This document shows positions 6,064 to 33,138 of a stretch of 53,553 nucleotides of DNA, piece after piece. The DNA is from Burkholderiaceae bacterium. Its GTDB lineage: Bacteria; Pseudomonadota; Gammaproteobacteria; Burkholderiales; Burkholderiaceae_C. Under the pieces are notes generated by a model. That model ran no database searches, was not told the DNA's origin, and worked only from the letters and a program-made list of their open reading frames with translations. The DNA lies in assembly GCA_016790515.1 (NCBI GenBank), contig JAEUOY010000104.1, forward strand, positions 1 through 53,553. The letters run 5' to 3'. A program made the translations under genes and the position numbers. How positions within the stretch are numbered: position 1 is the stretch's first letter; the number at the start of each line of letters is the position of its first letter.

Positions 6064-7134
6064 ATGCCCACCCGACGCGATGGCCTGCTGTTGCTGGCCG
6101 CCAGCCTTGGCGGCTGCGGGGCGCCGCCACCCCGGCGCGGCCCGACCGGTCCCGTTGTCTGGCCGGCGCCCCCGGAACCCGCGCGCTATGTCCACGAAGC
6201 CACCTTGCGCAATGCCGCAAGCCTGGCGGCCGCCGGAGATTCGGCCGACCTGATGCGCCGGCTGAGCGGCGAAGACCGTTCACGCGCGAGCTTCGGCAAG
6301 GCCTTGGCGGTGGCCGCCGGGCGCGGCTTCGTCTACGTCGGCGACACCGAGGGCCGGCGCATCTTCGTGTTCGACCTGCCGCGCCGGCGCACCTTCAGTT
6401 TCGGGCTGCGGCGCGAGGGCGAACTGAAGAAGCCCGCCGGCATCGCACTCGACACCGAAGGCCGGGTGCACGTGGTCGACGCCACGGCGCGGCGCGTCGT
6501 GGTGTTCGACGCGCTGGGGCTGTTCCTGCGCCAGATCGACGGCAGCGCAGACTGGGTGCGGCCCAGCGCGCTGGCCGTCAGCGCCGCGGGCGACCGCCTG
6601 TACGTGATCGATACCGGCGGTGTGGAGAGCAACAGCCACCGGGTCTGGGTCTACGACGGCGCCGGCCGACCGCTGGGCCGCATCGGCCGGCGTGGCGACG
6701 GCCCCGGCGAGTTCAACCTGCCGACCGACGCAGCCACCGGGCCCGACGGCAGCCTGTGGGTGCTGGATGCCGGCAACTTCCGCGTGCAGGCCTTCGATCG
6801 CGAGGGCCGCTTCGTGCGCCAGTTCGGCTCACTGGGCAACGGCATCGGCCAGTTCGCCCGGCCACGTGGCCTGGCGGTGGACCCCACCGGGCTGGTCTGC
6901 GTCAGCGACGCCGCCTTCTGCAACCTGCAGTTGTTCCAGCCCGATGGCACGCTGCTGCTGACCATCGGCAGCCGGGCCAGCCCCGGTGCCGATCGCGACC
7001 AACCGGGCCGCTACCTGCTGCCGGCCAAGCTGGCCGCCGACGAGACGGGCCGGCTGTATGTCGTCGACCAGTTCCTGCACAAGGTCGAGGTGCTGCGCCG
7101 GCTCGACACCGGACAGTTCCCCGGCACGGGCTGA
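6064..7134 (+). CDS. NHL-repeat beta-propeller lipoprotein
   Basis: A 356-residue lipoprotein. A short signal peptide ends in the lipobox LGGC (Cys18). The rest consists of NHL-type blades with recurring patterns such as PAGIALDTEGRVHVVD, GDGPGEFNLPTDAATGPDGSLWVLDAGNFRVQAFD and GQFARPRGLAVDPTG. NHL propellers are protein-interaction scaffolds, and exported ones recur beside multiheme cytochromes. No heme motif is present. The ATG at 6064 is the only start that gives a lipoprotein signal. It is divergent from ccmC and 173 bases upstream of a five-heme cytochrome. It is one of four NHL-like lipoproteins in the locus (with 10793, 20483 and 21493). Assembly factor or envelope scaffold is an inference. 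Confidence 0.85.
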   Translation: MPTRRDGLLLLAASLGGCGAPPPRRGPTGPVVWPAPPEPARYVHEATLRNAASLAAAGDSADLMRRLSGEDRSRASFGKALAVAAGRGFVYVGDTEGRRIFVFDLPRRRTFSFGLRREGELKKPAGIALDTEGRVHVVDATARRVVVFDALGLFLRQIDGSADWVRPSALAVSAAGDRLYVIDTGGVESNSHRVWVYDGAGRPLGRIGRRGDGPGEFNLPTDAATGPDGSLWVLDAGNFRVQAFDREGRFVRQFGSLGNGIGQFARPRGLAVDPTGLVCVSDAAFCNLQLFQPDGTLLLTIGSRASPGADRDQPGRYLLPAKLAADETGRLYVVDQFLHKVEVLRRLDTGQFPGTG

Positions 7135-7163
7135 CGAGGCGCGGCCGCGGGCGCAACAAGAAG

Positions 7164-7307: not shown

Positions 7308-8297
7308 ATGACATCGACGTCGCAGCCCAGATTCGTCGTGCCGAAGCCGTCACACGGGCCGGTCCGGATGGGAGCGATCGTCGGTTCGACCTGGGGCTGG
7401 GCCCTGCTGACGGTCGTCCTGCTGTGCACGGCCCTCGCGCCGGCACGCGCCGATACCGACCTGCCGACCAAGTTCAGCAACATCGGCACGGTGGGCAACA
7501 CACGACACAACCTGAGCCAGCGGCAGACCTCCGGCGGCGGCCCGTCGGGACAGACGATGGACTCGTTCCGCAACGACTACACCGAGGTCTGCGTCTACTG
7601 CCACACCCCGCACGGCGCGAACCGGACGACCGCCGCGCCGCTGTGGAACCGCACGATGAAGGCCACCACCTACCAGACCTACGACCTGCTGGCCACCGCC
7701 AGCCTGACGCAGCCGGTGACGCAGCCCGGGATGAACTCGCTGACCTGCCTGTCCTGCCACGATGGCCAGACCGCCGTCGACTCGATCATCAACATGCCGG
7801 GTTCGGGTCGTTTCCTGGCAACCCAGGAGACGTCGGAGAACGCCGCGTTCCTGAACAGCTGGAACAACAGCCGCGGCCCCGATGCGACGGTGCATGCCCG
7901 GATGGCGCCCACCGAATGCCTGGCCTGCCATTCGTCCGGCGCGGGCATCGTCGGCGCAGGCGCCACCGACTTCACGCTGTTCGCGATCGGCACCGATCTG
8001 CGCAACGACCATCCGGTGGGCATCCGCTACCCCACCACCGCCGGCCCGGGCACCGATTTCAAGGACCCGTCGCGCAAGGAAGCACGTCTGGCCTGGTTCG
8101 ACACCAACGCCAACAGCCGTGCCGATGCCAACGAGATCCGCCTGTACAACACCGGCGACGGCTACGAGGTGGAATGCGCCTCCTGCCACGACCCGCATGG
8201 CGTGTCGCCGTCGGGCGCCGGAGGCGCGTTCAACGCCACCTTCCTGCGGGTCAGCAACGCCGGCAGCGGCGTCTGCCTGACCTGCCACTCGAAGTGA
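7308..8297 (+). CDS. Pentaheme c-type cytochrome, OmcE-like family
   Basis: A 329-residue exported protein with an N-terminal signal (about 22-49). Five CXXCH motifs lie at about C95 (CVYCH), C147 (CLSCH), C204 (CLACH), C290 (CASCH) and C323 (CLTCH, seven residues from the C-terminus). The framework VCVYCHTPHG...PLWNR...CLSCHDG...GTDLRNDHPVGI...CASCHDPHG...VSNAGSGVCLTCH matches the tetraheme protein at 12159 almost motif for motif, with one extra heme inserted. That framework resembles filament-forming OmcE-type cytochromes, so an extracellular electron carrier is plausible. GGAGGGAGGA at 7292-7302 supports the ATG at 7308. It is probably its own transcription unit, ending at the hairpin at 8303. 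Confidence 0.88.
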   Translation: MTSTSQPRFVVPKPSHGPVRMGAIVGSTWGWALLTVVLLCTALAPARADTDLPTKFSNIGTVGNTRHNLSQRQTSGGGPSGQTMDSFRNDYTEVCVYCHTPHGANRTTAAPLWNRTMKATTYQTYDLLATASLTQPVTQPGMNSLTCLSCHDGQTAVDSIINMPGSGRFLATQETSENAAFLNSWNNSRGPDATVHARMAPTECLACHSSGAGIVGAGATDFTLFAIGTDLRNDHPVGIRYPTTAGPGTDFKDPSRKEARLAWFDTNANSRADANEIRLYNTGDGYEVECASCHDPHGVSPSGAGGAFNATFLRVSNAGSGVCLTCHSK

Positions 8298-8302: not shown

Positions 8303-8323
8303 CGCTGAGCGCCGCGCTCAGCG
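8303..8323. terminator. Bidirectional hairpin between convergent cytochrome genes
   Basis: A perfect 9-bp stem (CGCTGAGCG / CGCTCAGCG, 3-base loop) lies between the 3' ends of the plus-strand gene at 7308 and the minus-strand gene at 8318, overlapping the latter's stop. No clear T-tract follows, but position and symmetry suit a shared terminator. Confidence 0.5.
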
Positions 8324-9370
8324 TCGCAGCGCGATCGAATCGCCCGCCGGCCCGGGCGCGAACATCACCCGCTCGACATAGGCGCCGATGGCGTCGATCT
8401 CGGCGGGCTTCAGCACGGCCCGCCAGGCCGGCATCGAGGTGCCCGGCAGTCCGTCGCGGATCACCTGGCGCAGGCGCTGCGGCGGCAGGGTCTGCGCGCT
8501 GTACTGCGTCAGGTCGCGCGCCTTGGGCTCCATGAACTGGCCGATCCAGTTCTTGCCGGTGCCATCGCCGCCGTGGCAGAAGGCGCAATTGGCCTGGAAC
8601 AGCGCCTGGCCCCGCTGCTGCCGGGGCGTCAGCCCCGCGACCTGGGGCACCACCTCGTGCTTGGCGTAGACGCTGGCGCTGGACACCGCATCGACCGGCG
8701 GCGTGTTGGGTTGCCCGGGCTCGAACCCCATGCGCGGATAGGACACCGGCCGCGCGCTCCAGGCCGGGCCCTCGTCGAGCACCCGACCACGGTCGTGGCA
8801 GCTCACGCAGGCCGACAGGTAGAGCCGTCGTCCCTCGCGCTCGCCGGCGCTCAGCGATTCGACCGGGGCGTCCAGCGCCCGCTCGCCCCGCGCGAACGGG
8901 AAGGCCACGGCGAACCTCTGATGCTCCGGCCAGCCGTTCTCGGCCGTGTGATAGGCCGTGTTGGACGCCTTGTCGAGCACGAACTCGCGGGCGACGAAAC
9001 CGGCCACGGCGTCGATCTCGGCATCGCTCAGGATCCCCCCGAACGACTTCATCGCGGTACCGGGCCGGCCCTCACGCACCGCTGCAGCGATGCGATCGCG
9101 TGGCAGTTCGGCCGCCGTTGCGGCGCGGAAGTCACGCGGCTGCGGCGCCAGGTAGCTTGCCGCCAGCGTGCGGGCATCGCCCGAGTAGCCGTGGCAGAAG
9201 TAGCAGCGGAAGTTGTAGACCGCGCGGCCGACTTCGTGCGCATCGACCGCGGCGCCAACGGTCGAAGGTGCCACCGGGCCTGCGGCATCGGCGGTGCGGC
9301 CGACCGAGTCGTAACCCGCGGCGATCAACAGCAGCGCGGTCGCTGCGCCAGCCAACACGGTGCGCGTCAT
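8318..9370 (-). CDS. Three-domain (triheme) class I cytochrome c
   Basis: A 350-residue protein with an N-terminal signal or anchor (about 5-20). Three mono-heme cytochrome c domains follow, with CYFCH (about 56), CVSCH (about 187) and CAFCH (about 257). Downstream methionines in PGTAMKSFGG and PGTSMPAW are the likely distal heme ligands of the first and third domains; the middle one is shorter and less typical. It starts 27 bases after the diheme cytochrome gene at 9398, so both probably share the promoter at 10363. A likely role is a periplasmic electron shuttle to or from the multiheme conduit; the direction cannot be read from sequence. Confidence 0.85.
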   Translation of the reverse strand: MTRTVLAGAATALLLIAAGYDSVGRTADAAGPVAPSTVGAAVDAHEVGRAVYNFRCYFCHGYSGDARTLAASYLAPQPRDFRAATAAELPRDRIAAAVREGRPGTAMKSFGGILSDAEIDAVAGFVAREFVLDKASNTAYHTAENGWPEHQRFAVAFPFARGERALDAPVESLSAGEREGRRLYLSACVSCHDRGRVLDEGPAWSARPVSYPRMGFEPGQPNTPPVDAVSSASVYAKHEVVPQVAGLTPRQQRGQALFQANCAFCHGGDGTGKNWIGQFMEPKARDLTQYSAQTLPPQRLRQVIRDGLPGTSMPAWRAVLKPAEIDAIGAYVERVMFAPGPAGDSIALRR

Positions 9371-9397: not shown

Positions 9398-10318
9398 TCA
9401 GCGCCTGGCCGCGGCAGCCTGAGCGGCTGGCCGGCCCTGCACGAAAGTCTGGAAGACGTACTCGGCGACGTCGGCGATCTGCTGCGGCGACGACACCTTG
9501 CTCCAGGCGGGCATCTCGCTGCCCAGGCGCCCCTCGCTGATGGCCGCGAACAGCGCCACCCGGTTGAAGCGTGCGCGCGAATCGTCTTCGATGAAGTTGC
9601 GCGGCTTGGGGTTGATGAAGTAGGCCCGGGGCCCGGCGCCGTCGCCTCGGGCACCATGGCAGGTGGCACAGTTGGCCAGATAAAAAGCACCCCCACGCTT
9701 GAAGTCTCCCTTCAGACCGTTGGGGAGGCCGGCCGTCATGTCGACCCGCATGGGGGTGAGAACCGGATTGCCGTTGGCATCGGCCTCGCGCCCTCCGTGG
9801 GCCTGGGTGCCGGAGATCCCCGGCGTGCTGGCGGGGCCGCCCTGGCCCAGCACATAGCGCTGGTACACATGCTCGGCCAGCCGATCGATGTCGGTCTGCG
9901 ACAGCTGGGTCTTCCAGCCGACCATCGCGGTGCCCGGCCGGCCATGGGCAATGGCCAGCGCGATGCGCTCGCGGCTGAGCTCGCGTTTCGATGCCTCGGA
10001 GGTGAAGTCGCGCGGCGTCGTCGACAGCGCGCCGGTGGCCCGGCTCCTGCCGTCGCCCTTGTCGCCATGGCAGACCGAACAGTAGTTGTGGTACAGCACT
10101 GCCGGATCGGGACTGCCGGCCGCGCCGCGCGCGCCGCTCACCTCGGACGCTGGCGCGGCAGCCCTGGCCGGTTGGAGGGCCAGCGTGATGGCCGCCAATG
10201 CCGCCAAAGCCGCCAATGCCATTGGGCCGATCCGGGTCACGGCCGCCAGCCGCCGCGCGCCGCTGGACGCGATGGTGGTCAGCCCGGCCGCCGCGCGGCG
10301 GCGATCGTCAGAGCTCAT
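9398..10318 (-). CDS. Diheme class I cytochrome c
   Basis: A 306-residue exported protein. It has a long N-region, a hydrophobic signal (about 33-52) and two cytochrome c domains with CSVCH (C80) and CATCH (about C213). Probable distal ligands are the methionines in PGTAMVGW and GSEMPAW. The ATG at 10318 is preceded by GAGGA at good spacing; an internal ATG at about residue 33 is the alternative start. It is transcribed divergently from the monoheme cytochrome at 10475, from a strong sigma-54-type promoter (10363-10378), and followed closely by the triheme gene. It is likely a periplasmic carrier. Confidence 0.85.
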   Translation of the reverse strand: MSSDDRRRAAAGLTTIASSGARRLAAVTRIGPMALAALAALAAITLALQPARAAAPASEVSGARGAAGSPDPAVLYHNYCSVCHGDKGDGRSRATGALSTTPRDFTSEASKRELSRERIALAIAHGRPGTAMVGWKTQLSQTDIDRLAEHVYQRYVLGQGGPASTPGISGTQAHGGREADANGNPVLTPMRVDMTAGLPNGLKGDFKRGGAFYLANCATCHGARGDGAGPRAYFINPKPRNFIEDDSRARFNRVALFAAISEGRLGSEMPAWSKVSSPQQIADVAEYVFQTFVQGRPAAQAAAARR

Positions 10319-10362: not shown

Positions 10363-10378
10363 TGCAACTTCCTTGCCA
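10363..10378 (-). promoter_or_regulatory. Sigma-54 promoter for the diheme/triheme cytochrome genes
   Basis: The minus strand reads TGGCAAG-GAAG-TTGCA, matching the RpoN consensus at nearly every conserved base with exact spacing. The predicted start is about 10352, 34 bases before the ATG at 10318. It is back to back with the plus-strand promoter at 10408. Confidence 0.75.
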
Positions 10379-10407: not shown

Positions 10408-10423
10408 TGGCATGGGCTTTGCA
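10408..10423 (+). promoter_or_regulatory. Sigma-54 promoter for the monoheme cytochrome and NHL gene
   Basis: TGGCATG-GGCT-TTGCA matches the RpoN consensus at both elements with GG-N10-GC spacing. The predicted start is about 10434, with GGAG at 10463 before the ATG at 10475. It forms a divergent pair with the site at 10363. No clear TTCCCG-type palindrome lies in this short intergenic region. Confidence 0.75.
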
Positions 10424-10474: not shown

Positions 10475-10786
10475 ATGACGTTTTCGAAACTGAGACAGGC
10501 CCTTCTCGGATTTGGTGTCGCCACGCTGGCGCTGCCCTTGCTGGCCGCCGATGGCAAGGCGGTCTACGACAAGACCTGTGTCGCCTGCCACGCCTCGGGC
10601 GTGGCCAATGCGCCCAAGCTGGGCGACAAGGCGGCCTGGGCACCCCGCGTGGCGCAGGGCAAGGACGCAATGGTGGCCTCGGTCGTCAAGGGCAAGGGTG
10701 CGATGCCGCCGAAGGCCGGTGCCGCGGACCTGAAGGACGACGACATCAAGGCCGCCGTCGACTTCATGCTGGCCTCGCTCAAGTAG
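10475..10786 (+). CDS. Small monoheme cytochrome c (c5-like)
   Basis: A 103-residue periplasmic cytochrome with a cleavable signal (about 1-25). CVACH lies at C35 and the likely distal methionine in KGAMPPKAG. The pattern KTCVACHASGVANAPKLGDKAAWAPR...DLKDDDIKAAVDFML is that of cytochrome c5-type proteins. The N-terminal domain of the fused protein at 16824 is a close paralog. GGAG 8 bases upstream supports the ATG at 10475; a GTG at 10466 is the alternative. It is followed after 6 bases by the NHL lipoprotein gene. Confidence 0.9.
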   Translation: MTFSKLRQALLGFGVATLALPLLAADGKAVYDKTCVACHASGVANAPKLGDKAAWAPRVAQGKDAMVASVVKGKGAMPPKAGAADLKDDDIKAAVDFMLASLK

Positions 10787-10792: not shown

Positions 10793-11914
10793 ATGGAGTG
10801 GCCGCACGCCCGCAGTCCGGCGCTGACACGGCGCTCGGCGCTGCTGTACCTCACCGTGCTGGCGGGCTGCGCCACGCCGCCACCGGCGCCCGACGCAGCA
10901 CCCGCCCGGGCACTCGTCTTCCCGCCGGCTCCCGACGAACCCCGCTTCGCCTGGGAACGCGTGATCCGTTCCAGCGGCGACATCGTGCCCGACGCGCAAT
11001 CGAGCGAACTGCGGCGCATGGTGACGGGCGAGGAGGTGCGCGGCGAGCCCTTGTCCAAGCCCTATGCGGTGGCGGTGTATCGGGGCCGCATCTTCGTCTC
11101 CGACACGGTCAGCCGCTTCGTGCGCCTGTTCGATGTGCCGCAGGGTCAGCAGCACCGCATCGGCGATGACGAAGGCCCGGGGCAACTGATCAAGCCCACC
11201 GGGCTGGACGTCGATGCGGCCGGCAACCTCTACGTGGCCGACATCGGCGCCAAGGCCGTGCTGGTCTACGGGTCCGATCGCCAGTTCCTGCGCCGCATCG
11301 GCGGCGAGAAGTGGTTCTCGCGCCTGTCCAGCGTCACCGTCGATCCCGCAGGCGCCCGCGTCTATGCCGTCGACCTGGGCGGCGTCAGCAGCGAGCAGCA
11401 CCGGGTGCGGGTGTTCGACGCGGTCAGCGGCGCCCATCTGATGGACATCGGCAAGCGCGGCAGCGGCCCGGGTGAGTTCAACCTGCCACGCGACCTGGCC
11501 ATCGGCATGGGTGGCCGCCTGTACGTGGTCGACGGCGGCAACTTCCGCGTCGTGGTGTTCGACGCATCCGGGCGCTACCTGCAGAGCTTCGGCAGCGTGG
11601 GCAAGCAGTACGGCCAGTTCGCCCGGCCGAAGGAGGTCGCGGTCGACCGCGACGGCAATGTCTATGTCGTCGACGCCGCCTTCGGCAACTTCCAGATCTT
11701 CAATCCCGACGGCGAACTGCTGATGTTCGTCGGCGACCGTTCCGAACGCGACGGGCCGGGCAAGTACATGCTGCCCTCGGGCATCGCGGTGGACGAGGAC
11801 GGCCGCATCTACGTGGTCGACCAGTGGTTCCGCAAGATCGATGTCTACCGACCGGTGGCGTTGACGGCCCACTCGGGCTACCTGGCCCGCCGCCCGACCG
11901 CAGCGGCGAAGTGA
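10793..11914 (+). CDS. NHL-repeat beta-propeller lipoprotein
   Basis: A 373-residue protein with a type II signal ending in LAGC (about residue 26) and a six-bladed-type NHL propeller. Typical blade motifs are IKPTGLDVDAAGNLYVADIG, GSGPGEFNLPRDLAIG, GGNFRVVVFDASGRYLQSFG, GQFARPKEVAVDRDGNVYVVD and LPSGIAVDEDGRIYVVD. It is the closest relative in the window of the 6064 protein, sharing the GxGPGEFNLP and YGQFARP blocks. It lies 6 bases after the monoheme cytochrome gene and is probably cotranscribed from 10408. A scaffold or assembly role at the outer or inner membrane is inferred from the recurrent pairing with cytochromes. Confidence 0.87.
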   Translation: MEWPHARSPALTRRSALLYLTVLAGCATPPPAPDAAPARALVFPPAPDEPRFAWERVIRSSGDIVPDAQSSELRRMVTGEEVRGEPLSKPYAVAVYRGRIFVSDTVSRFVRLFDVPQGQQHRIGDDEGPGQLIKPTGLDVDAAGNLYVADIGAKAVLVYGSDRQFLRRIGGEKWFSRLSSVTVDPAGARVYAVDLGGVSSEQHRVRVFDAVSGAHLMDIGKRGSGPGEFNLPRDLAIGMGGRLYVVDGGNFRVVVFDASGRYLQSFGSVGKQYGQFARPKEVAVDRDGNVYVVDAAFGNFQIFNPDGELLMFVGDRSERDGPGKYMLPSGIAVDEDGRIYVVDQWFRKIDVYRPVALTAHSGYLARRPTAAAK

Positions 11915-12063: not shown

Positions 12064-12079
12064 TGGCACGCTTTCTGCA
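12064..12079 (+). promoter_or_regulatory. Sigma-54 promoter for the tetraheme cytochrome
   Basis: TGGCACG-CTTT-CTGCA has a perfect -24 element and GG-N10-GC spacing. The predicted start is near 12090, giving a leader of about 70 bases that includes GAGGA at 12146 before the ATG at 12159. With its paired upstream sites this is the best-formed regulatory region in the window. Confidence 0.75.
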
Positions 12080-12158: not shown

Positions 12159-13049
12159 ATGATGGCATGGCTATCGGGTCGCAGATGGTGGGGGGCGGCG
12201 TCCGCAGGATTGCTGGCGGCAATGCTCCTCGGCTTCGCCGCACCAGCGTCGGCGGGCATCGCCGACACCAAGCACAACCTGGGATCGGGCGCAGGCCCGG
12301 CAGGGCGCAACCAGGTCTCCGACACCGCGGAGATCTGCGTCTTCTGCCACACACCGCACGGCGGCAGCACCGATGCGCCGGTGCCTTTGTGGAACAAGCG
12401 GCTCGGTACCGCGGGCGCGCCTGCCGGCGGCGGCAGCTACACCACCTACGACACGCTGCAGACGCCTTCGCTGGACGGCACGGTGGCCGCGGTGGGTTCG
12501 ATCTCGATGGCCTGCCTGTCGTGCCATGACGGCACCCAGGCGATGGACAACGTGATCAACGCGCCGGGCTCGGGCGGGCTGTTGGCCGACGGCGGTGGCG
12601 TCGACGGCCGGGGTTACACCTGGACCGGCAGCACGGTGAACGCGGCCGGCCGGCTGTCCAGCGGCGTGGCGTTGATCGGCACCGATCTCAGCAACGATCA
12701 CCCGATCGGCATCCAGTACTGTGGCGGTGGACTGAGCGGCAGCGCCGGCACGGTGTCGGGCACCTGCAAGGACACCGACTTCCGGTTGCCGGAGACGCAG
12801 ACCATCAACGGCAACCAGATCTTCTGGGTCGACACCGGCGCCCCTGGCACCAAGCAGCGCACCGACCTGCCGCTGTACCAGCGCAGCACCGGCGGGCTGG
12901 GCCCGATGGTGGAGTGCGCCAGCTGCCACGACCCGCATGTATCCAACAACCAGGCCGGCCCGGCCGGCACCGGCCAGACCGCGGGCGAGACCTTCCTGCG
13001 CATCTCCAACGCGTCGTCGGCGGTCTGCACCGCCTGCCACGTGAAGTAG
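12159..13049 (+). CDS. Tetraheme c-type cytochrome, OmcE-like nanowire candidate
   Basis: A 296-residue exported protein with a signal peptide of about 32 residues. Four CXXCH motifs lie at C60 (CVFCH), C119 (CLSCH), C253 (CASCH) and C290 (CTACH, near the C-terminus). It shows the framework DTKHNL...ICVFCHTPHGG...PLWNK...CLSCHDGTQAMDNVINAPGSG...GTDLSNDHPIGI...CASCHDPHV...CTACHVK. Four hemes, the spacing and the small size match what is known of OmcE-type cytochromes that form extracellular filaments. Two extra cysteines (QYC, GTC) could form a disulfide. It has its own sigma-54 promoter, and a PPIase and barrel candidate follow. The filament function is an inference; the heme count and family framework are seen directly. 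Confidence 0.88.
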   Translation: MMAWLSGRRWWGAASAGLLAAMLLGFAAPASAGIADTKHNLGSGAGPAGRNQVSDTAEICVFCHTPHGGSTDAPVPLWNKRLGTAGAPAGGGSYTTYDTLQTPSLDGTVAAVGSISMACLSCHDGTQAMDNVINAPGSGGLLADGGGVDGRGYTWTGSTVNAAGRLSSGVALIGTDLSNDHPIGIQYCGGGLSGSAGTVSGTCKDTDFRLPETQTINGNQIFWVDTGAPGTKQRTDLPLYQRSTGGLGPMVECASCHDPHVSNNQAGPAGTGQTAGETFLRISNASSAVCTACHVK

Positions 13050-14303: not shown

Positions 14304-14343
14304 GTGCCGCGCCCGGCCCCGAAGCTGGCGCGCCCTGCAGGCC

Positions 14344-16317: not shown

Positions 16318-16827
16318 GTGCCCCCGTCTGCCCCCAGCACCCAAAGGGTCCGCAACACCGTTGCCGCGTGGGCCGCAGCGGTTGCCGCACTGGCCGTGCT
16401 GCTGACCGTCGCGCCGGCGCGGGCCGAGTACGGCGACGTCGTGATCAACAACTTCTCCGACGCCGCAGGCATGCGCCCGGTGGTCTTCCCGCACTGGTTC
16501 CACCGGGTCCGCTTCCGCTGCAAGGTGTGCCACGCCGATCTGGGCTTTCAGTTCAAGGCCGGTGGCAACGACATCAACATGCTGAAGATCATCGACGGCC
16601 AGTTCTGCGGCTCCTGCCACAACGGCGAGTTGGCCTGGGCGGTGGAGAACTGCAACCTGTGCCACTCGGCCAAGCCCGGCACGCCGACCCAGGTGCACGA
16701 AAGCACGCTGCAGAAGCTGGCACCGCGGCCTGCCGCCGCGTCGGCTCCGGCGCTGGCCGCGGCCCCGGCCGCAAGTGCGCCGCCGGCCCGGGCGACGACC
16801 GCCAACCGGCAGGAGACCCGGCCATGA
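16318..16827 (+). CDS. c7-type triheme cytochrome
   Basis: A 169-residue exported protein (GTG start at 16318, signal about 12-36). Three CXXCH motifs lie at 68 (CKVCH), 97 (CGSCH) and 112 (CNLCH), with paired histidine ligands in VVFPHWFHR. The pattern PHWFHRxRFRCKVCHxxLGFxxxAGxNxxxMxxIxxGxFCGxCHN is that of the c7 triheme domain family (named nanowire_3heme in TIGRFAMs, as I recall). An Ala/Pro-rich tail (about 125-165) may be a flexible linker. The stop overlaps the next start (ATGA). A close paralog lies at 20112. A role as a small multiheme periplasmic carrier is likely. Confidence 0.9.
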   Translation: MPPSAPSTQRVRNTVAAWAAAVAALAVLLTVAPARAEYGDVVINNFSDAAGMRPVVFPHWFHRVRFRCKVCHADLGFQFKAGGNDINMLKIIDGQFCGSCHNGELAWAVENCNLCHSAKPGTPTQVHESTLQKLAPRPAAASAPALAAAPAASAPPARATTANRQETRP

Positions 16828-25232: not shown

Positions 25233-26251
25233 AAGCCAACGCCACCGCCGCCATCATTCGCGTCGCAACCCCGGTGATCGCGCACCTGGGCTCGCTGCGC
25301 GCCACGCTGGCCGGGCTGGCGCTGCTGGCCGCGGTGGTGCTGGCACGCCCGGACTGGCAGGCCTTGTCGCTGGTCATCGGCGCGCTGGCGATCAACCTGA
25401 CGGTCGCCCTGGCGCACCACCCCGGCCTGCGCCGACGGCTGCCGCTGCTGGTGGCGCACCTGGCGCTGCTGGCGCTGGTGGTGGGCGTGGCATTCGGTCG
25501 GCTCACCGCGCTGGACGGCCATTTCGAGCTCACCCAGGGTCTGGCTTTCGACGGCCAGCTCATCGACCAGGCCAGCGGCCCGCTGTACCGGCCGCCGCTG
25601 CATCGGCTGGCCTTCCGCCACGAGGGCTTCGAGATCGACTATGCGCCGGGCCGCAAGCGCGGCGCGACCCGCAATGCCGTCAGCTGGGTCGACGAATCCG
25701 GCCAGGCGCGGCGCGCGGTCATCGGCGACCACCGGCCCCTGGTGCTGGCCGGCCACCGCATCACGACGACGCCCAACAAAGGCTTTGCGCCGCTGCTGCG
25801 CTGGCTGCCCGGACGCGGCGAGCCGTTGGCCGGCACGGTGCACCTGCCCAGCTTTCCCGCGAACGAGTTGCGCCAGTCGCGCGAATGGGCCTTGCCCGAC
25901 GGCCGCAAGGTCTGGGTGATGCTGCACACCGACGAGACCCTGATCGACCCGGGCAGTGCCGGGCGCTTCCGGCTGCCCGATGACCACCGGCTGGTGGTGC
26001 GGCTGGACGACCAGCGCACCGAGCTGCAACCCGGCCAGGCCTGGCGCATCAGCGGCGGCACGCTGGTCTACGAGGGCCTGCGCAGCTGGATGGGGTACCG
26101 CGTCGCCTACGACCCCACGCTGCCCTGGCTGCTCGCCGCGGCCCTGGTCGCCGCGCTGGCACTGGGCTTGCACTATGCGCAGAAGTTCTGGCTGCAACTG
26201 CCGGCCCGGGCGGTGCAGCCGCGGACGGATCCGGGAGAGCTCGATGGATGA
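25229..26251 (+). CDS. ResB/CcsB-like System II cytochrome c maturation protein
   Basis: A 340-residue membrane protein of the ResB family. It has three N-terminal membrane helices (about 22-38, 44-60, 71-89), a large periplasmic domain (HFELTQGLAFDGQLI...HEGFEIDYAPG...EWALPDGRKVWVMLHTDETLIDPG...WMGYRVAYDPTLPW) and a last helix (about 297-320). With CcsA it forms the heme delivery and ligation complex of System II. It is a short ResB form, common beside multiheme cytochrome genes. It overlaps the 11-heme gene by 4 bases and ccsA by 8. Confidence 0.85.
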   Translation: MKANATAAIIRVATPVIAHLGSLRATLAGLALLAAVVLARPDWQALSLVIGALAINLTVALAHHPGLRRRLPLLVAHLALLALVVGVAFGRLTALDGHFELTQGLAFDGQLIDQASGPLYRPPLHRLAFRHEGFEIDYAPGRKRGATRNAVSWVDESGQARRAVIGDHRPLVLAGHRITTTPNKGFAPLLRWLPGRGEPLAGTVHLPSFPANELRQSREWALPDGRKVWVMLHTDETLIDPGSAGRFRLPDDHRLVVRLDDQRTELQPGQAWRISGGTLVYEGLRSWMGYRVAYDPTLPWLLAAALVAALALGLHYAQKFWLQLPARAVQPRTDPGELDG

Positions 26252-27029
26252 TGGTCAACTGTTGCGCGGCGCGCTCGGCCTGTACGCCGGCACGGCGGCC
26301 GGCCTGCGCTGGCCGCGGCTGGCCGGTGCCACGCTGACCGCCGCCGTTGCGCTGCACACGGCCGCGCTGGCAGGCCGCTGGCAGGCGCACGGCCACGGGC
26401 CGTTCACCACCATGCACGAGATCCTCAGCTCCAACCTGTGGAGCCTGGCGCTGGTGTTCGCCGTCGCCTGGTGGACCGTGCGCGAACTGCGGCCCGCACT
26501 GGTCAACGCGCTGCCGGTCTGGGCCGTGCTGGGCGCCTGGCTGCTGATGGCCAACCCTGCGCCGGGACACTTCCCGCCGACCTACGCCACGCCCTTGCTG
26601 TACCTGCACACGCTGGTCGGCAAGCTGTTCCTGGGCCTGCTGCTGGTGGCGGTGGCGCTGGGTGGGGTGCCGCTGCTGCGCCGCAGCGGGCGGGGCACGG
26701 GGGTCTTCGCCGCGGCACCCGACGACCGTCGGCTCGATGAACTGGCGCATCGCTTCTCGGCCTTCGCCTTCGTTGCGCAGACGCTGATGCTGATCGTCGG
26801 CGCGGTCTGGGCGCAGGACGCCTGGGGCCGCTACTGGGCCTGGGACCCGCTGGAATCCTGGGCCTTCGTCACCTGGCTGGCGCTGGCCGCCACGCTGCAC
26901 GGACGGGTCACGCTGCGTCCCTCGCCGGCCCTGCACGGGGCCTGGCTGGCCGGGGTGTTCGTGCTGGCTTTCCTCACCTTCTTCGGCGTGCCGTTCGTGT
27001 CGACAGCGCCGCACAAGGGGGCGGTGTGA
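26244..27029 (+). CDS. ccsA: CcsA/ResC-like cytochrome c synthase
   Basis: A 261-residue multi-spanning protein of the CcsA/CcmC/CcmF superfamily. The tryptophan-rich WWD motif is WAQDAWGRYWAWDPLESW (about 190-207). Conserved histidines lie in FTTMHEILSSN, LLYLHTLVGK and the C-terminal STAPHKG. The length is shorter than many CcsA proteins but with the usual helices. It exports and attaches heme together with the ResB partner encoded just upstream. The start ATG at 26244 lies inside the end of resB. The window thus carries both System I and System II ligases. Confidence 0.88.
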   Translation: MDDGQLLRGALGLYAGTAAGLRWPRLAGATLTAAVALHTAALAGRWQAHGHGPFTTMHEILSSNLWSLALVFAVAWWTVRELRPALVNALPVWAVLGAWLLMANPAPGHFPPTYATPLLYLHTLVGKLFLGLLLVAVALGGVPLLRRSGRGTGVFAAAPDDRRLDELAHRFSAFAFVAQTLMLIVGAVWAQDAWGRYWAWDPLESWAFVTWLALAATLHGRVTLRPSPALHGAWLAGVFVLAFLTFFGVPFVSTAPHKGAV

Positions 27030-27595
27030 TCGGCCTGGCCGGCAGGCGCCGCGAACCCGGCGGTCTGCGACGCCGCGACTGGCGCCTGCCGGGACTGCTG
27101 CTGACGTTGTCGGCGGTGGCCGGTGGCGGCTGGCTGATCGAGCGCGCCGGCGCGCCGACCGGCACGGCCACACCCGCCGCCACGGCCGCGATGCCGCACC
27201 AGGCGCAGGTGCAGCGCCTGTTCGACCAGGCGGTCCTGATGCTGCATGCGCGCCAGTTCGAGCCCGCGGCGACCGCGCTGCACCGGGTGCTGCAGCTGGC
27301 ACCCACGCTGACCGAGGCCCATGTCAACATGGGCTATGCCTTGCTGAGCCTGCAGCGGCTGAAGGAGGCGCGCGACTTCTTCGACAGCGCCATCGCGCTG
27401 AAGCCCGATCAGGCCAATGCCTACTACGGGCTCGCGCTGGCCTGGGAGGCCGCGGGTGACCTGCCGATGGCCACCGGCGCGATGCGCAGCTACCTGCACC
27501 TGGCGAAGAACGAGCGCCCGGAGCACCTGCGCCGCGCACGGGCCGCGCTGTGGGAATGGGAGCAGGCGCGCGAGAGCGGCGGCCGTCAACGCTGA
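27026..27595 (+). CDS. Membrane-anchored TPR protein
   Basis: A 189-residue protein from a GTG overlapping the ccsA stop. An Arg-rich N-terminus, one membrane segment (about 22-40) and three TPR units (about 62-165: VQRLFDQAVLMLHARQFEPAATALHRVLQLAP, AHVNMGYALLSLQRLKEARDFFDSAIALKP, ANAYYGLALAWEAAGDLPMATGAMRSYLHLA) are visible. TPR proteins present apocytochromes to heme ligases (compare CcmI/NrfG), so this is likely the apocytochrome-binding partner of the ResB-CcsA pair. It is the last gene of the long operon; a new promoter candidate follows at 27611. Confidence 0.8.
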   Translation: MIGLAGRRREPGGLRRRDWRLPGLLLTLSAVAGGGWLIERAGAPTGTATPAATAAMPHQAQVQRLFDQAVLMLHARQFEPAATALHRVLQLAPTLTEAHVNMGYALLSLQRLKEARDFFDSAIALKPDQANAYYGLALAWEAAGDLPMATGAMRSYLHLAKNERPEHLRRARAALWEWEQARESGGRQR

Positions 27596-27610
27596 TCGCT
27601 GGCGCCCGGC

Positions 27611-27626: not shown

Positions 27627-27674
27627 AAGCAGGCGGTATGACCCACCTGCCCTGTGCGCTTGGCCCGCCGCCGG

Positions 27675-27710
27675 TTCCCGTTTCCGGGAACCACTTCCCG
27701 AAGCCGGGGA
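27675..27710 (+). promoter_or_regulatory. Paired palindromic activator sites before ccmI
   Basis: TTCCCG-TTTC-CGGGAA at 27675-27690 (extended to GGTTCCCG/CGGGAACC) and TTCCCG-AAGC-CGGGGA at 27695-27710, 20 bp apart. These are the best-conserved members of the motif also seen at 7164/7185 and 11973/11995. Unusually they lie downstream of the promoter candidate at 27611, in the would-be leader of ccmI. Confidence 0.65.
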
Positions 27711-27726
27711 CCCGGGAGCCTCGGCG

Positions 27727-28995
27727 ATGACCGTCTTCTGGATCGTCGCCGCCCTGTTCCTGCTGGGGGCCTTGCTGCTGATGCTGCCGGCGCTGCTGGT
27801 GCCCCGCAGCGATAGCCTCGGCGCCGGCAGTGCCAGCCTGGCGGTGTATCGCGACCAGTTGCGCGAGGCCCGTGCCGACCTCGCAGCCGGATGGCTGTCG
27901 CCCGAGCGCTTCGCGCAGGTGCGCAGCGAGGTCGAACGCCGTGCCCTCGAGGACATCGACGCGGGTGTTGCCGCAAGACCGGTGGGGCCGTCGCGCCGCA
28001 CGGCCCTGGCACTGGCGCTGCTGCTGCCGCTGGCCAGCGTGCTGACCTACCTGCAACTGGGCGACCCGCAGGCGCTGGCACCTGCCCTGGCCGTCACGAA
28101 CCGCCACAGCGTGACACCCGAGCAGATCCAGCGAATGGTCGCGGCGCTGGCCGAGCGGCTGAAGGGCACGCCCGACGATGCCGAGGGCTGGCTCAACCTG
28201 GCCCGCTCGTATACCGCGCTGGGCCGCTACCGGGATGCCGCCACCGCGTTCCGGCGCGCCAGCGAACTGCTGCCCGGCAATGCCCATGTGCTGGCCGACC
28301 TGGCCGACGTGCTGGCCATGACCCAGAACAAGCGATTGGCCGGCGAACCTGCGAGGCTGGTGCAGCAGGCGTTGGACATCGATCCGCGCCATGTCAAGGC
28401 GCTGTCGCTGGCCGGCAGCGTCGCGTTCGAGGCGCGCGACTACCCGGCTGCCCGCAGCCACTGGCAGCGCCTGGTGGCCGTGCTGCCGGCCGACTCGCCG
28501 ATGTTGCGCTCAGTGCAGGGCAGCATTGCCGAAGCCAACCGCCTGGAGGCCGGTGGCCAGGCGGCCACCGCCGAAGGGCCCCGGCCAGCGCCTGCGTCGG
28601 TGCGTGTCGCGGCCACCACCACCGACGCCGCGGCAGCGGCCGCCGCGACCGGCAGTGCGGTCAGCGGCGAGGTCGTTGTCAGCCCCGAGCTGAGTGCCCG
28701 CATTGCGCCGGGCGACACGGTCTTCGTCTTCGCAAGGGCGGCGCAGGGGCCGCGCATGCCATTGGCGATCCTGCGTCACCCGGCAGACGGCAAGCCGATG
28801 ACCTTCACGCTGGATGACGCGATGGCGATGACGCCCGAACTGAAGCTGTCGAACTTCCCGCTGGTGGTGGTGGGCGCACGCATCTCGCGCAGCGGCAACG
28901 CGACGCCGCAGCCGGGCGATCTGGTGGGCCAGGGCGATCCCGTGCGACCGGGCACGTTGGGTCTGCGCATCGTCATCGACCGGGTCCAACCGTGA
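27727..28995 (+). CDS. ccmI: Cytochrome c maturation protein CcmI/CycH
   Basis: A 422-residue inner-membrane TPR protein. Two membrane helices (about 1-24 and 93-112) frame a cytoplasmic heptad region (VYRDQLREARADLAAGWLSPERFAQVRSEVERRALEDI), followed by periplasmic TPR units (about 140-270) and a beta-rich C-terminal domain. It binds apocytochrome C-termini and delivers them to CcmFH. It is separated by about 22 kb from ccmCDEFGH, with which it is normally contiguous. The ATG at 27727 begins the first membrane helix. Confidence 0.92.
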   Translation: MTVFWIVAALFLLGALLLMLPALLVPRSDSLGAGSASLAVYRDQLREARADLAAGWLSPERFAQVRSEVERRALEDIDAGVAARPVGPSRRTALALALLLPLASVLTYLQLGDPQALAPALAVTNRHSVTPEQIQRMVAALAERLKGTPDDAEGWLNLARSYTALGRYRDAATAFRRASELLPGNAHVLADLADVLAMTQNKRLAGEPARLVQQALDIDPRHVKALSLAGSVAFEARDYPAARSHWQRLVAVLPADSPMLRSVQGSIAEANRLEAGGQAATAEGPRPAPASVRVAATTTDAAAAAAATGSAVSGEVVVSPELSARIAPGDTVFVFARAAQGPRMPLAILRHPADGKPMTFTLDDAMAMTPELKLSNFPLVVVGARISRSGNATPQPGDLVGQGDPVRPGTLGLRIVIDRVQP

Positions 28996-29073: not shown

Positions 29074-29667
29074 ATGCGCCTGAAGTCTGTTCCAACAATT
29101 GTCGTGATGGGCTTGGCGGGCTGGTTGGTCGGCTTTCCGACGCAGGCGAACGACGAAGTCCAGCGCGCGGCCCTGGACGACGCCCGCAAGGCGGCCACCG
29201 AGCTGGTCACCGGGGTGCGCACTGAACTGCTGAAGGCCATCGAAGCCAGCGGGCCCTTGCGCGCGATCGTCGTCTGCAAGTACGTCACGCCCGAGATCGC
29301 ATCGGCCGTCTCGCGCAAGTACGGCGCACGGGTCACGCGGGTCAGCCTGACACCGCGCAATCCGTCGCTGGGTTGGGGCGACGCCTGGGAACAGAAGGTG
29401 TTGATGGGCTTCGACGAGCGCATCGCCGCCGGCGAGAAGGCCGAGGGCATGGAGTTCCACGAGGTGGTCAAGGAGCCCAGTGGCAAGTTCCTGCGCTACA
29501 TGCGGGCGCTGCCGATGCAGCCAGCCTGCATGCATTGCCACGGACCGACGGACCAGATGTCGGAGCCGATCCGCAGCCAACTCGCACACGACTACCCGCA
29601 CGACCGTGCCACCGGCCTGACGCTGGGCAAGGCGCGCGGTGCAGTCACCTACAAGAAGCCGCTCTGA
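29074..29667 (+). CDS. Exported Tll0287-like (DUF3365) heme protein
   Basis: A 197-residue protein with a signal peptide (about 1-25). The domain is of the Tll0287/DUF3365 type: IVVCKYVTPEIASAVSRKYGARVTRVSLTPRNPSL...FHEVVKEPSGKFLRYMRALPMQPACMHCHGPTDQM. One heme motif, CMHCH, is at 152-156; C68 is an extra cysteine. Such domains are c-heme sensor modules, often attached to kinases, and here it is free-standing. It lies 78 bases after ccmI and about 640 bases before the histidine kinase gene at 30308, so it may sense redox state or a gas ligand for that kinase. That link is an inference. Confidence 0.82.
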   Translation: MRLKSVPTIVVMGLAGWLVGFPTQANDEVQRAALDDARKAATELVTGVRTELLKAIEASGPLRAIVVCKYVTPEIASAVSRKYGARVTRVSLTPRNPSLGWGDAWEQKVLMGFDERIAAGEKAEGMEFHEVVKEPSGKFLRYMRALPMQPACMHCHGPTDQMSEPIRSQLAHDYPHDRATGLTLGKARGAVTYKKPL

Positions 29668-30307: not shown

Positions 30308-31750
30308 GTGACCCATGCCGCTGCCGACCTGCCGCTGCCGGCGCACAAATCGCTGCGCGCCAAGGCCTGGTTTGCCACGCTGGCGCTGCTGGCCTACCTG
30401 CTCGGTTCGGCGCTGTACATCGCCAGCGAGCGCGGCAAGATCTACGACAGCATCCAGCGCCTGGAAGAGCTGGCCGAGCATGAGAAGGCGCTGGCACTGG
30501 CCGAGGCGGCCATCAACGGGGCGCTGGTCGATGCCAGCGAGGCCAGCAGCGCCGCAGCGGCCGAGCCGCCCCAGCCCTCGGAGATGCGGCTGTACATGGA
30601 AGCCTGCACCAAGCTGATGGGCGCGCTGGAGCCGTTCGACCCGGCCTACGCGTTGATCTACCGCGCCATCGAACGGTCCTTCGGGTCGCTGGAGGCCGCG
30701 CCGGTGCGCGCCAACTGGATCGACCTGCGTGAAACCCTGGGCCGCGCGGCCGACGACCTGGAGATCCGCCGCGTCCGCCTGGTGGCGTCGCGGGAGGCGC
30801 TGACGCAGGGCTACCAGCGCCTGTACGACGCGGTGACGATCGAGTCGCTGGGGCTGGCCACGGTCGGCCTGCTGGCCTTCGGCACCCTGGCCGGCTGGTT
30901 CTTCGCCCGCCTGTCGGCGGACGTGCGGCGGCTGGAGGCCCATGCCCGGCACATCGTCCGGGGCGGCCGAGGCGTGACGCTGGACGTGCAGCGGGAGGAC
31001 GAACTGGGGCGCCTGATGCACGCCGTCAACCGCATGGCCATCGATCTGGACGAACGCGAGAAGCAGATCGAGGTCGACGGCCAGCGCCGGTCGCACCAGG
31101 ACAAGATGCTGGCCGTGGGGGCCCTGGCGGCCGGTCTGGCCCACGAGGTGAACAACCCTCTGGCAGTGATCACCGGCCTCGCGCAGGAATTGAAGGCCGC
31201 GCCGCAGACGCTGTCGCCCGCGGACCTGGCCGGCAGCGCGCAGATGATCCTGACCCAGGCGCAGCGAGCGTCGCTGGCCGCACGGCACCTGGCCGAGGCC
31301 GCCGCGCCGCAACCGGCCGAGTTGGACTGGGTGGACCTCAACGCGATGGTTCAGCGCGCCGTGCAGCTGTTGGGCTACGACCGGCGCTACCGCTCGTTCA
31401 CCTTCGAGGTGGTCACCGACCCGGCGTTGCCGGCGGTGCGCACGGTCGGCAATGCGATCCAGCAGGTGCTGATGCAGTTGCTGGCGTTGGGCTGCGATGC
31501 GATGAAGGCCCAGGGTGATGCCCCGGCCGAGGTGCGCATCGCGACCGCCGAGCAGTCCGGCCAGGTCGAGGTCAGCCTGCTGTTCCCGTCGGTGATCGAC
31601 TTCACGCGCGCCGAGGTCCAGAACAGCCTGCTGCTCAATCGCGCCATCGTCGAGCCGCTGGGCGCAAGGCTTGCGCTCCGTCAAGTCGAAGGCCCCCGGC
31701 TGCGCATTACGCTCGGCCTGGCCTCACCTGGAGGCGACGAACGAGGATGA
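30308..31750 (+). CDS. Membrane histidine kinase with degenerate ATP-binding domain
   Basis: A 480-residue protein from a GTG start. It has TM1 (about 20-40), a periplasmic helical sensor (about 41-177), TM2 (about 178-200), a HAMP domain (about 200-252) and a HisKA-type dimerisation helix with LAHEVNNPLAVITG (H279). The catalytic domain is abnormal: the N-box reads QQVLMQLLALGCDAM without the usual asparagines, and the DxGxG and GxGLGL glycine boxes are missing. It therefore may not autophosphorylate, and could act as a phosphatase or depend on another kinase such as the hybrid kinase at 36502. Its stop overlaps the start of the NtrC-type regulator, its clear partner. Confidence 0.85.
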   Translation: MTHAAADLPLPAHKSLRAKAWFATLALLAYLLGSALYIASERGKIYDSIQRLEELAEHEKALALAEAAINGALVDASEASSAAAAEPPQPSEMRLYMEACTKLMGALEPFDPAYALIYRAIERSFGSLEAAPVRANWIDLRETLGRAADDLEIRRVRLVASREALTQGYQRLYDAVTIESLGLATVGLLAFGTLAGWFFARLSADVRRLEAHARHIVRGGRGVTLDVQREDELGRLMHAVNRMAIDLDEREKQIEVDGQRRSHQDKMLAVGALAAGLAHEVNNPLAVITGLAQELKAAPQTLSPADLAGSAQMILTQAQRASLAARHLAEAAAPQPAELDWVDLNAMVQRAVQLLGYDRRYRSFTFEVVTDPALPAVRTVGNAIQQVLMQLLALGCDAMKAQGDAPAEVRIATAEQSGQVEVSLLFPSVIDFTRAEVQNSLLLNRAIVEPLGARLALRQVEGPRLRITLGLASPGGDERG

Positions 31751-33138
31751 GCGGGATGCCGGAGTTGAATGTGCTCGTCGTGGATGACGAGCCGGCCATC
31801 CGGCAGGTGCTGTCGGCCGCGATCTCCAAGGCCGGCTACGCGGTGGACACCGCGGCATCGGCCGCCGAGGCCTTGGCCAAGCTCGACAAGACCTCGATCG
31901 ATGTCGTGCTCAGCGACGTCTTCATGCCGGTGACCGACGGCATCGAGTTGCTGAAACTGGCCCGCGCGCGCGGCCATTCGTCGACCTTCATCATGGTCAC
32001 CGCGTTCGCCTCGGTCGATTCGGCGATCGATGCGATCAAGGCCGGCGCCTGGGACTACATCACCAAGCCGGTCCGCAGCGAGGAGATCGTGCACCGCCTC
32101 GAGCAGATCGATGCGCTGCGCGGCCTGCGCGAGGAGAACCGCACGCTGCGCAGCCTCGTGCTCGGCAGCGGCGCGAAGGCGTTCAGCTTCACGTCGCCGG
32201 CGATGCAGGCCACCGAGAGGCTGATCGCGCGCGTCGCGCCCACCGGCAGCACCGTGCTGATCACCGGCGAGAGCGGCACCGGCAAGGGTGTCAGCGCCAG
32301 GCGCATCCATGAACTGTCGTCGCGACGCGACGGGCCCTTCATCCCGGTGAACTGCGCCGCGATTCCCGAGACCTTGATCGAGAGCGAGCTGTTCGGCCAT
32401 ACCAAGGGCGCCTTCACCAGTGCCGACCGGGTGCGCAAGGGCCTGTTCGTGCAGGCCGACCGAGGCACCATCTTCCTCGACGAGATCGGCGAACTGCCCC
32501 TGGGCATGCAGACCAAGCTGCTGCACGTGCTGGAGGCCAAGGAAGTGCGGCCGCTGGGTTCGGAGCAGAGTCGCAAGGTCGACGTTCGCATCATCGCGGC
32601 CACCAACCGCGACCTGGCCGCGATGGTTGCGGCCGGCCGGTTCCGCGAGGACCTGTTCTTCCGGTTGTCGGCGTTCCAGATCCCGATGCCGCCGCTGCGA
32701 GCGCGGCGCGAGGACATCCCGGGCCTGCTGCGCCACCTGATCGCCCAGCGGGTGATGCCTTCGGGCACGCACGAAGAGCTGGTGCTGGAGCCCGAGGCCG
32801 AGGACCTGCTGGTCAATTTCAGCTGGCCGGGCAACGTGCGGCAGCTCGAGAACGTGCTGCACCGCGCCGCCATACTGGCCGACGGTGGCTGCATCCGCAC
32901 CGTCGACCTGCCGCCGGAGGTCACCCGCGGCAACAGCGCAACCATCGCCAACCCTGTGGCGGCCGACGGTGCCGGCGGCGAAGGCAGCCTGCGCGATCGG
33001 GTGCGGCGCTTCGAGTTGTCGCTGCTCCGCCGCGCCATCGACGAGGCCGGCGGCGACCGCCGGTTGGCCGCGCAGCGTCTGGGCATCGGCTTGTCCAGCC
33101 TGTACCGCAAGCTCGAAGAGACCGGCAGCGACGGCTGA
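31747..33138 (+). CDS. NtrC-family sigma-54-dependent response regulator
   Basis: A 463-residue regulator. The receiver domain (about 6-120) has VVDDE, phospho-acceptor D57 and K107. The AAA+ domain (about 145-380) has Walker A GESGTGKG (174-181), a sigma-54 contact loop GAFTSA (221-226; usual form GAFTGA), Walker B TIFLDE (241-246) and FREDLFFRLSAFQIPMPPLR. The C-terminal Fis-type helix-turn-helix is GGDRRLAAQRLGIGLSSLYRKLEE. It activates RpoN-dependent promoters, and many surround it here. The paired TTCCCG-N4-CGGGAA sites are its likely targets (inference). It overlaps the kinase gene by 4 bases. Confidence 0.93.
   Translation: MSGMPELNVLVVDDEPAIRQVLSAAISKAGYAVDTAASAAEALAKLDKTSIDVVLSDVFMPVTDGIELLKLARARGHSSTFIMVTAFASVDSAIDAIKAGAWDYITKPVRSEEIVHRLEQIDALRGLREENRTLRSLVLGSGAKAFSFTSPAMQATERLIARVAPTGSTVLITGESGTGKGVSARRIHELSSRRDGPFIPVNCAAIPETLIESELFGHTKGAFTSADRVRKGLFVQADRGTIFLDEIGELPLGMQTKLLHVLEAKEVRPLGSEQSRKVDVRIIAATNRDLAAMVAAGRFREDLFFRLSAFQIPMPPLRARREDIPGLLRHLIAQRVMPSGTHEELVLEPEAEDLLVNFSWPGNVRQLENVLHRAAILADGGCIRTVDLPPEVTRGNSATIANPVAADGAGGEGSLRDRVRRFELSLLRRAIDEAGGDRRLAAQRLGIGLSSLYRKLEETGSDG

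Follow-up and report, generated by a model that had tools for sequence, protein, structure and literature searches.

The undecaheme electron transfer (Uet) cluster, uetABCDEFGHIJ (PMC12575090), has been reported from Tenderiales, Gallionella and Leptothrix (PMC10734462, PMC13386937, PMC12575090, PMC5371394). As described in passages of PMC10734462, UetA is a tetraheme cytochrome, UetB a peptidyl-prolyl isomerase (PPIase), UetC a porin, UetD, UetE and UetG triheme cytochromes, UetH and UetI NHL proteins and UetJ an undecaheme cytochrome; six Gallionella with Uet are mentioned there, the porin having been detected in four of them. UetJ and its porin are also reported for Leptothrix Group 2 (PMC13386937), and in Ca. 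Tenderia electrophaga the triheme genes are described as highly expressed, with the TPR gene Tel_16525 numbered among them, and the expression of the undecaheme gene Tel_16545 as unchanged with potential (PMC5371394). Here, a cluster of this type is described in the window, that is, the whole analyzed stretch of 53,553 nucleotides of contig JAEUOY010000104.1 (forward strand) from the Burkholderiaceae bacterium assembly GCA_016790515.1 (Burkholderiaceae_C), and two of its cytochromes are related to OmcE, the filament subunit of Geobacter sulfurreducens (PDB 7tfs).

An operon of anaerobic methanotroph (ANME) partner bacteria (PMC5539420) likewise combines a propeller, a PPIase and multiheme cytochromes; however, its cytochromes (16-heme and 26-heme) are different, and the passages on it state no link to OmcE.

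Identity and Gene Content of the Cluster

Gene models were built from open reading frames (ORFs) and codon-position G+C. To judge by gene content and order, the core at 12159-25232 is the Uet cluster with two extra genes, a system already known, and contains the following:

12159..13049, + strand: UetA-like tetraheme cytochrome of the OmcE family (7tfs, E 1.3e-21, residues 19-295; eight invariant His in 12 of 12 aligned rows)
13236..14303, + strand: UetB-like PPIase of the PpiC/SurA type (Pfam Rotamase_2, 8.6e-15; tblastn match at the corresponding position in 8 of 8 relatives)
14344..16287, + strand: UetC-like outer-membrane beta barrel, predicted (AlphaFold2)
16318..16827, + strand: UetD-like triheme cytochrome c7 (Pfam Cytochrome_C7, 1.8e-14; PDB 3ov0, 2.3e-32)
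16824..17825, + strand: UetE-like cytochrome, a class I monoheme domain fused to a triheme c7 (Cytochrome_CBB3, 5.6e-11; Cytochrome_C7, 1.7e-11; Pfam search with the sequence starting at 16818)
17822..18685, + strand: UetF-like helical protein, copy 1 (by position between c7 genes; no Pfam match)
18682..19563, + strand: UetF-like helical/TPR protein, copy 2 (Pfam TPR_2 in 2 of 8 aligned members, the window's own not among them)
19573..20115, + strand: additional triheme c7 cytochrome (Cytochrome_C7, 5.1e-11)
20112..20486, + strand: UetG-like triheme c7 cytochrome (Cytochrome_C7, 3.3e-14)
20483..21496, + strand: UetH-like lipoprotein, presumed propeller (by position; lipobox-like N-terminus in the sequence; no Pfam match)
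21514..22608, + strand: UetI-like NHL propeller lipoprotein (Pfam NHL, 3.8e-24)
22608..25232, + strand: UetJ-like undecaheme cytochrome, an OmcE-like N-terminal module with seven further hemes (UetJ profile against 7tfs, 8.3e-57)

The locus was filed as Uet because the gene order in loci fetched from the class agrees with the published description, which was taken from papers citing or related to Eddie et al. 2022 (PMC10734462, PMC13386937, PMC12575090, PMC5371394). The window has the tetraheme, PPIase and barrel genes in Uet order, four c7 domains (one joined to a class I heme domain) for UetD, UetE and UetG, two helical proteins in the position of UetF, and 11 CXXCH motifs in UetJ, as do 7 of 7 complete copies from relatives, the eighth copy being cut off. 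The heme numbers 4, 3, 3, 3 and 11 are those of Uet. The order A-B-C-D-E-F-G-H-I-J (tetraheme, PPIase, barrel, c7, c7, helical, c7, 20483-type, NHL, undecaheme) is shared by four (L180, L181, L182 and L185) of the six class loci used for comparison; L184 shows the extended order of the window, in which a helical protein and a c7 are added, and L183 is a short contig. Unlike Uet as described, the window has two UetF-like proteins, four c7 proteins and a UetE fused to a class I heme domain; it also has extra NHL propellers, a sigma-54 two-component pair and a UetA paralogue with five hemes. A categorically new filament locus was considered and rejected, the Uet description being already published. 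New here are the OmcE link, the architecture of UetJ and a recurring promoter-like site, not the cluster itself.

Conservation and Distribution

The tetraheme gene (12159) was found in 4 of 150 genomes of the family, the barrel in 7 of 200 genomes of the order, the barrel profile in 43 of 369 genomes of the class (three of the matches weak) and UetJ in 3 of 60 close relatives, the host genome being included in each count; one of 20 other genomes of the genus had UetJ. A plasmid-borne copy was also considered, but the plasmid collection contained no match to UetJ. For comparison, stretches were fetched from 3 of 3 family and 5 of 6 order genomes with matches (G011, with its barrel match at a contig end, was left out), and six class genomes with the barrel were fetched for the order comparison.

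The tetraheme, PPIase, barrel, c7, NHL and 11-heme genes form a single ordered block in 8 of 8 fetched relatives. Together with the class loci, this rules out genes that are single and scattered in relatives, the outcome named by the original prediction as contrary to it, and a chance gathering of cytochromes was rejected on the same synteny. Within the block, the helical proteins are unmatched in G045, the 20483 protein is unmatched in G225, G132 and G170 (a second comparison gave a weak match in G132), ResB is matched in six of the eight, and the stretch of G132 ends inside UetJ. The tetraheme has four hemes in 8 of 8, and heme numbers are likewise constant in the 11-heme protein and in the c7 proteins outside the fusion; the 16824 fusion varies from three to four. 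The block is a stable unit with a patchy distribution, stable because it recurs in order in all eight relatives and because the heme numbers of its tetraheme and 11-heme proteins are fixed. As a separate observation, G045 (L033) has a second UetJ-like frame with nine hemes directly after UetJ.

Relation of UetA and UetJ to OmcE

The match of UetA to the OmcE filament subunit runs end to end, and the pentaheme protein at 7308 (E 1.1e-17) and the N-terminus of the 11-heme protein at 22608 (E 4.1e-22) match the same chain; the sequences thus bear out the OmcE relation that had been suggested for these three proteins. When 49 of the 58 UetJ sequences collected were built into a profile, it matched 7tfs over chain residues 6-232. 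The OmcE-family alignment consists of OmcE, 9yuq, nine UetA and the pentaheme protein (12 rows); the UetA of the window is 37% identical to OmcE, and the nine UetA 35-40%. The four CXXCH motifs and four other His are invariant in all rows, giving the eight His that a bis-His tetraheme requires, the four outside CXXCH probably serving as second heme ligands. OmcE is reported to receive one heme ligand from the neighboring subunit, the passages concerned not stating which, and its filaments to have a rise of about 34 Angstrom. Full-length homology and the eight His are thus common to the OmcE filament, UetA and the UetJ module; filament formation, known for OmcE, is only proposed for UetA.

The same eight His are kept in 58 of 58 collected UetJ, and the C, C and H of all 11 heme motifs are invariant in 49 UetJ sequences. 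Fifty of the collected UetJ come from loci of an OmcE-seeded scan. The patterns used to choose these loci already included positions 45, 48 and 139 of the OmcE row, three of the eight His, and the loci were ranked by OmcE likeness, so that conservation of these three is partly enforced in the fifty. No such bias affects the other five His, or any of the eight His in the window and the seven syntenic genomes. Six of 56 listed UetJ-like frames were dropped before the count (four outside 10-12 hemes, two with no usable start), and the cut-off UetJ of G132 was left out. By alignment, UetJ consists of a complete OmcE-like module and a fused part with seven additional hemes. All 12 rows of the OmcE-family alignment end two residues past the last CXXCH, whereas UetJ runs on with its further hemes, and because of this difference UetJ is proposed here as a possible end piece of a wire. 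None of the 15 papers listed, out of 168 in a literature search, names both UetA and OmcE, which does not deny an earlier link in print; the word OmcE is absent from PMC10734462.

The UetC Barrel

The protein at 14344, already proposed as an outer-membrane barrel candidate, is modeled by AlphaFold2 as a large plugless beta barrel with 28 strands by our own count, at a predicted local distance difference test score (pLDDT) of 87.6. The best VIA match of the model is MtrB, and UetC may in this respect resemble the barrel of the MtrCAB complex (PDB 6r2q). It differs in the counted 28 strands and in lacking a match to MtrB_PioB, or to any Pfam family at E 1e-3; its sequence profile reached only E 0.09 against the PDB. 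The likeness of UetJ to MtrA is also partial, the UetJ profile matching MtrA over one stretch only (E 4.6e-11).

OmcE-like Genes in Other Bacteria

The OmcE-seeded scan confirmed at least 580 relatives, from which 79 loci were kept; the counts below use stop-to-stop frames, in a sample picked by similarity to OmcE. The loci come from Geobacter, Nitrospirae, Acidobacteria, Planctomycetes, Bacteroidetes, Verrucomicrobia, Thiobacillus, Sulfurimicrobium and other groups. Of the 79 loci, 76 have an NHL gene. OmcE-like genes with 3-6 hemes and those with at least 8 hemes occur in 65 loci each, and 51 loci have both types; among the 39 loci of at least 20 kb, 33 have both types and all 39 the NHL gene. 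The PPIase profile is the best match of a frame in six of the 79 loci (L049, L056, L059, L062, L106 and L107) and the c7 profiles in five (L044, L071, L076, L078 and L106). The whole Uet set is therefore not general in this sample, and the wider pattern covers OmcE-like and NHL genes only.

In the Geobacter-type loci L038 and L047, the gene adjoining OmcE encodes an NHL protein, and CcsA and ResB-like genes (the ResB-like one identified by eye) are also present; the other cytochromes of these loci, however, have 8 to 10 hemes and differ from those of Uet. Shen et al. reportedly described in 2025 an osc (omcS-companion) assembly cluster with a prolyl isomerase, channel-like proteins and a propeller beside a filament cytochrome, parts that would be in common with Uet. 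A comparison with Geobacter osc by way of the PPIase was tried and rejected, PPIases being too common to decide membership; the PPIase profile was matched in 17 of 18 genomes reached through the loci.

Three minor observations are added. A Geobacter metagenome-assembled genome (MAG) has at L137:5247-10550 a further OmcE-type cluster, separate from the OmcE locus L038, with PPIase, glycosyltransferase-like, NHL, 4-heme OmcE-like, 7-heme and 3-heme genes. L069, L081, L086 and L114 (Thiobacillus, Sulfurimicrobium, Nitrosomonadales MAG) have a 24-heme frame with an OmcE-like stretch upstream of the 11-heme frame, in the position where many other OmcE-seeded loci carry the 4-heme gene. Exactly 11 CXXCH are present in 48 of the 56 listed UetJ-like frames (L038-L116), which belong to many phyla.

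Sigma-54-like Sites

A scan with the sigma-54 consensus (at most one mismatch) gave 11 sites in the window against 2.3 expected, a number reached in 0 of 100 shuffles. Those that stand before genes in the correct orientation are:

10363..10378, − strand: sigma-54-like site 5' of the 9398 gene
10408..10423, + strand: sigma-54-like site 5' of the c5 gene
12064..12079, + strand: sigma-54-like -24/-12 site 5' of uetA (10 of 11 consensus letters)
33162..33177, + strand: sigma-54-like site 5' of the Sel1/cytochrome/propeller genes

The site 5' of uetA recurs with 10 of 11 letters in seven of nine genomes, 86-150 bases before the start; one of the other two has 8 letters and one has none. Simulated sequence scored 10 in 16 of 3000 cases, and a 10-letter site was found 5' of uetB in one of the nine genomes and 5' of the first c7 gene in none. 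In the window, G289 and G329, the divergently oriented genes 9398 and 10475 likewise have sites of 9 to 11 letters in front of them; before the 9398 gene in four other genomes the score was 5 to 7 only. The scan rows H5 and c5 of the order relatives, which mostly point to other genes, were not used. The regulator encoded at 31747 may act on these sites.

Proposed Model and Alternatives

It is considered rather probable that the locus represents an extended Uet-type cluster for extracellular electron transfer that works according to the following model. UetA would be located outside the cell and stack head to tail into a heme wire; the OmcE-like module of UetJ would dock at one end of the wire, and its seven further covalent hemes would continue the chain inward. 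The 28-strand barrel UetC would form a sheath where the chain passes the outer membrane, as MtrB does around MtrA, while the triheme c7 proteins and class I cytochromes would carry electrons on through the periplasm. UetB and the propeller lipoproteins may fold and place the parts, ResB, CcsA and CycH would attach the hemes, and the sigma-54 pair may switch the cluster on.

More specifically, Uet may be more than a porin conduit, namely an OmcE-type nanowire system with UetA as the wire, UetJ as the covalently extended terminal subunit that connects the wire to an MtrB-like UetC, and electrons moving inward, a reading that is offered tentatively. The secretion and anchoring of cytochrome nanowires are termed speculative in passages of a 2025 review (PMC12307469). 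Should UetJ be an OmcE subunit that carries its own extension, it would name a possible joint and provide a testable three-protein model of UetA, UetJ and UetC, and nanowires would also occur in bacteria drawing electrons from iron or cathodes. If the reading holds, the pairing of a tetraheme OmcE-like subunit with an 11-heme protein carrying the same module would represent a scheme, general across phyla, by which cytochrome nanowires are anchored. The original prediction of an extracellular electron-transfer locus finds support in the published Uet cluster, its statement that the locus builds a nanowire stands as a proposal, and its wording "conduit or nanowire" was a fair call, which the OmcE link, the UetJ architecture and the promoter-like site turn into a testable model.

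Several observations weigh against the model or parts of it. UetF and UetH are assigned mainly by position. For the UetC model, MtrB scores only 1.8 Z units above BtuB, Foldseek ranks TonB receptors first and MtrB 28th, and identity to relatives is low (24-46%). The lack of an MtrB_PioB (PF11854) match in the host genome, counted in favor of the model together with RuBisCO, is a weak negative in a draft that is 82% complete. The structure model of UetJ is poor (pLDDT 56.4), has no PDB match and was not used. The UetC profile is the best match of no frame in the 79 OmcE-seeded loci, so that OmcE-like genes elsewhere occur with no UetC barrel within 10 kb; no barrel-profile match is listed either for a set of 14 stretches that includes L038, L047 and L137. 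As regards regulation, only four of the 11 sigma-54-like sites are correctly oriented before genes, the sole exact consensus match (26157) lies within a coding sequence, and the response regulator is matched in only three of eight relatives. A fixed inward direction is also at odds with an undecaheme cytochrome in a manganese reducer, mentioned in passages of a citing paper.

A plain porin-cytochrome conduit with no wire, in which UetA would be a monomeric surface cytochrome and UetJ would span or cap UetC, is a credible minority alternative. Uet is filed among porin-cytochrome complexes in passages of PMC10734462 and PMC13386937, MtrB is the top VIA match of UetC, and OmcE-type homology alone is no proof of polymerization; on the other hand, UetA keeps all eight OmcE-family His, hence also the His contributed to the neighboring subunit, whichever it is, and like OmcE it stops right after heme 4.

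With regard to direction, inward electron flow is favored, and electron export for metal or electrode reduction has a smaller, still appreciable, probability. Export would agree with OmcE being tied in the literature passages to Fe(III) oxide reduction in Geobacter, and with the manganese reducer already mentioned; however, Uet is otherwise reported from cathode oxidizers and iron- or metal-oxidizing groups (PMC10734462, PMC13386937, PMC12575090), and the host genome encodes the large subunit of ribulose-1,5-bisphosphate carboxylase/oxygenase (RuBisCO; G000:C75:43513-44433). A misbinned contig, with the locus foreign to this genome, is very improbable: the assembly is a 5.0 Mb draft of 176 contigs (the window being contig 66) and UetJ is rare in the genus, but the G+C of about 70% is fairly even along the window (0.65-0.75 across 2-kb steps), and the locus is also present in one congener and in three further genera of the family.

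Flanking and Accessory Genes

The genes around the core are the following:

1516..5013, − strand: ccmE-F-G-H maturation genes, CcmG thioredoxin-like (family search)
6064..7134, + strand: NHL propeller lipoprotein (Pfam NHL, 2.3e-27)
7308..8297, + strand: OmcE-like pentaheme UetA paralogue (five hemes in 3 of 3 family relatives)
8318..9370, − strand: three-heme class I cytochrome c (Cytochrome_CBB3, 1.9e-32)
9398..10318, − strand: two-heme class I cytochrome c (Cytochrome_CBB3, 6.5e-21)
10475..10786, + strand: c5-like monoheme cytochrome (Cytochrome_CBB3, 6e-17)
10793..11914, + strand: NHL propeller lipoprotein adjoining uetA (Pfam NHL, 1.5e-22)
25229..26251, + strand: ResB-like cytochrome c maturation protein (Pfam ResB, 1.7e-10)
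26244..27029, + strand: CcsA-like cytochrome c assembly protein (Pfam Cytochrom_C_asm, 3.3e-21)
27026..27595, + strand: TPR protein (Pfam TPR_2, 2.6e-10)
27727..28995, + strand: CycH/CcmI-like maturation protein (Pfam Ig_CycH, 9.2e-34)
29074..29667, + strand: Tll0287-like (DUF3365) monoheme protein (Pfam, 1.9e-21)
30308..31750, + strand: histidine kinase (Pfam HAMP, HisKA)
31747..33138, + strand: sigma-54-activating response regulator (Pfam Sigma54_activat, 1.6e-68)
33216..36484, + strand: Sel1 protein, monoheme cytochrome and two Reg_prop propellers (Pfam), the propellers at 34156 and 35222 (34156-36484), 3' of the other two

A CXXCH tally across all ORFs, with frame-shadow ORFs resolved, gave exactly the 41 motifs in 12 heme proteins that had been predicted: 7308 (5), 8318 on the minus strand (3), 9398 on the minus strand (2), 10475 (1), 12159 (4), 16318 (3), 16824 (4), 19573 (3), 20112 (3), 22608 (11), 29074 (1) and 33851 (1). 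The predicted PPIase (13236) and sigma-54 two-component pair (30308 and 31747) were confirmed by Pfam. Both cytochrome maturation sets are present, ResB/CcsA-like/CycH at 25229-28995 and the ccm genes outside the 6064..33138 range given to the locus. Three of four supposed propeller lipoproteins have NHL matches (6064, 10793 and 21514), the one at 20483 being a propeller by position only. The locus had also been called self-contained, which is right in part: class I cytochromes, maturation genes and regulator do accompany the block in three family relatives, but the proteins scanned included no inner-membrane quinone oxidoreductase.

The Sel1/cytochrome/Reg_prop genes are matched in four of eight relatives, with none seen in the other four, whose stretches are 17-20 kb. 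A hybrid kinase and an ApbE flavin transferase gene adjoin the block (36547-40328, + strand), and an ISAZ013-type transposase piece (41600-42124, + strand) lies between the ApbE gene and a CHAT module. The latter, beyond the Uet locus at 42552-48046 (+ strand), encodes in succession a sigma-70 region 2 factor, a small protein, a CHAT-TPR protein and an S8 subtilase.

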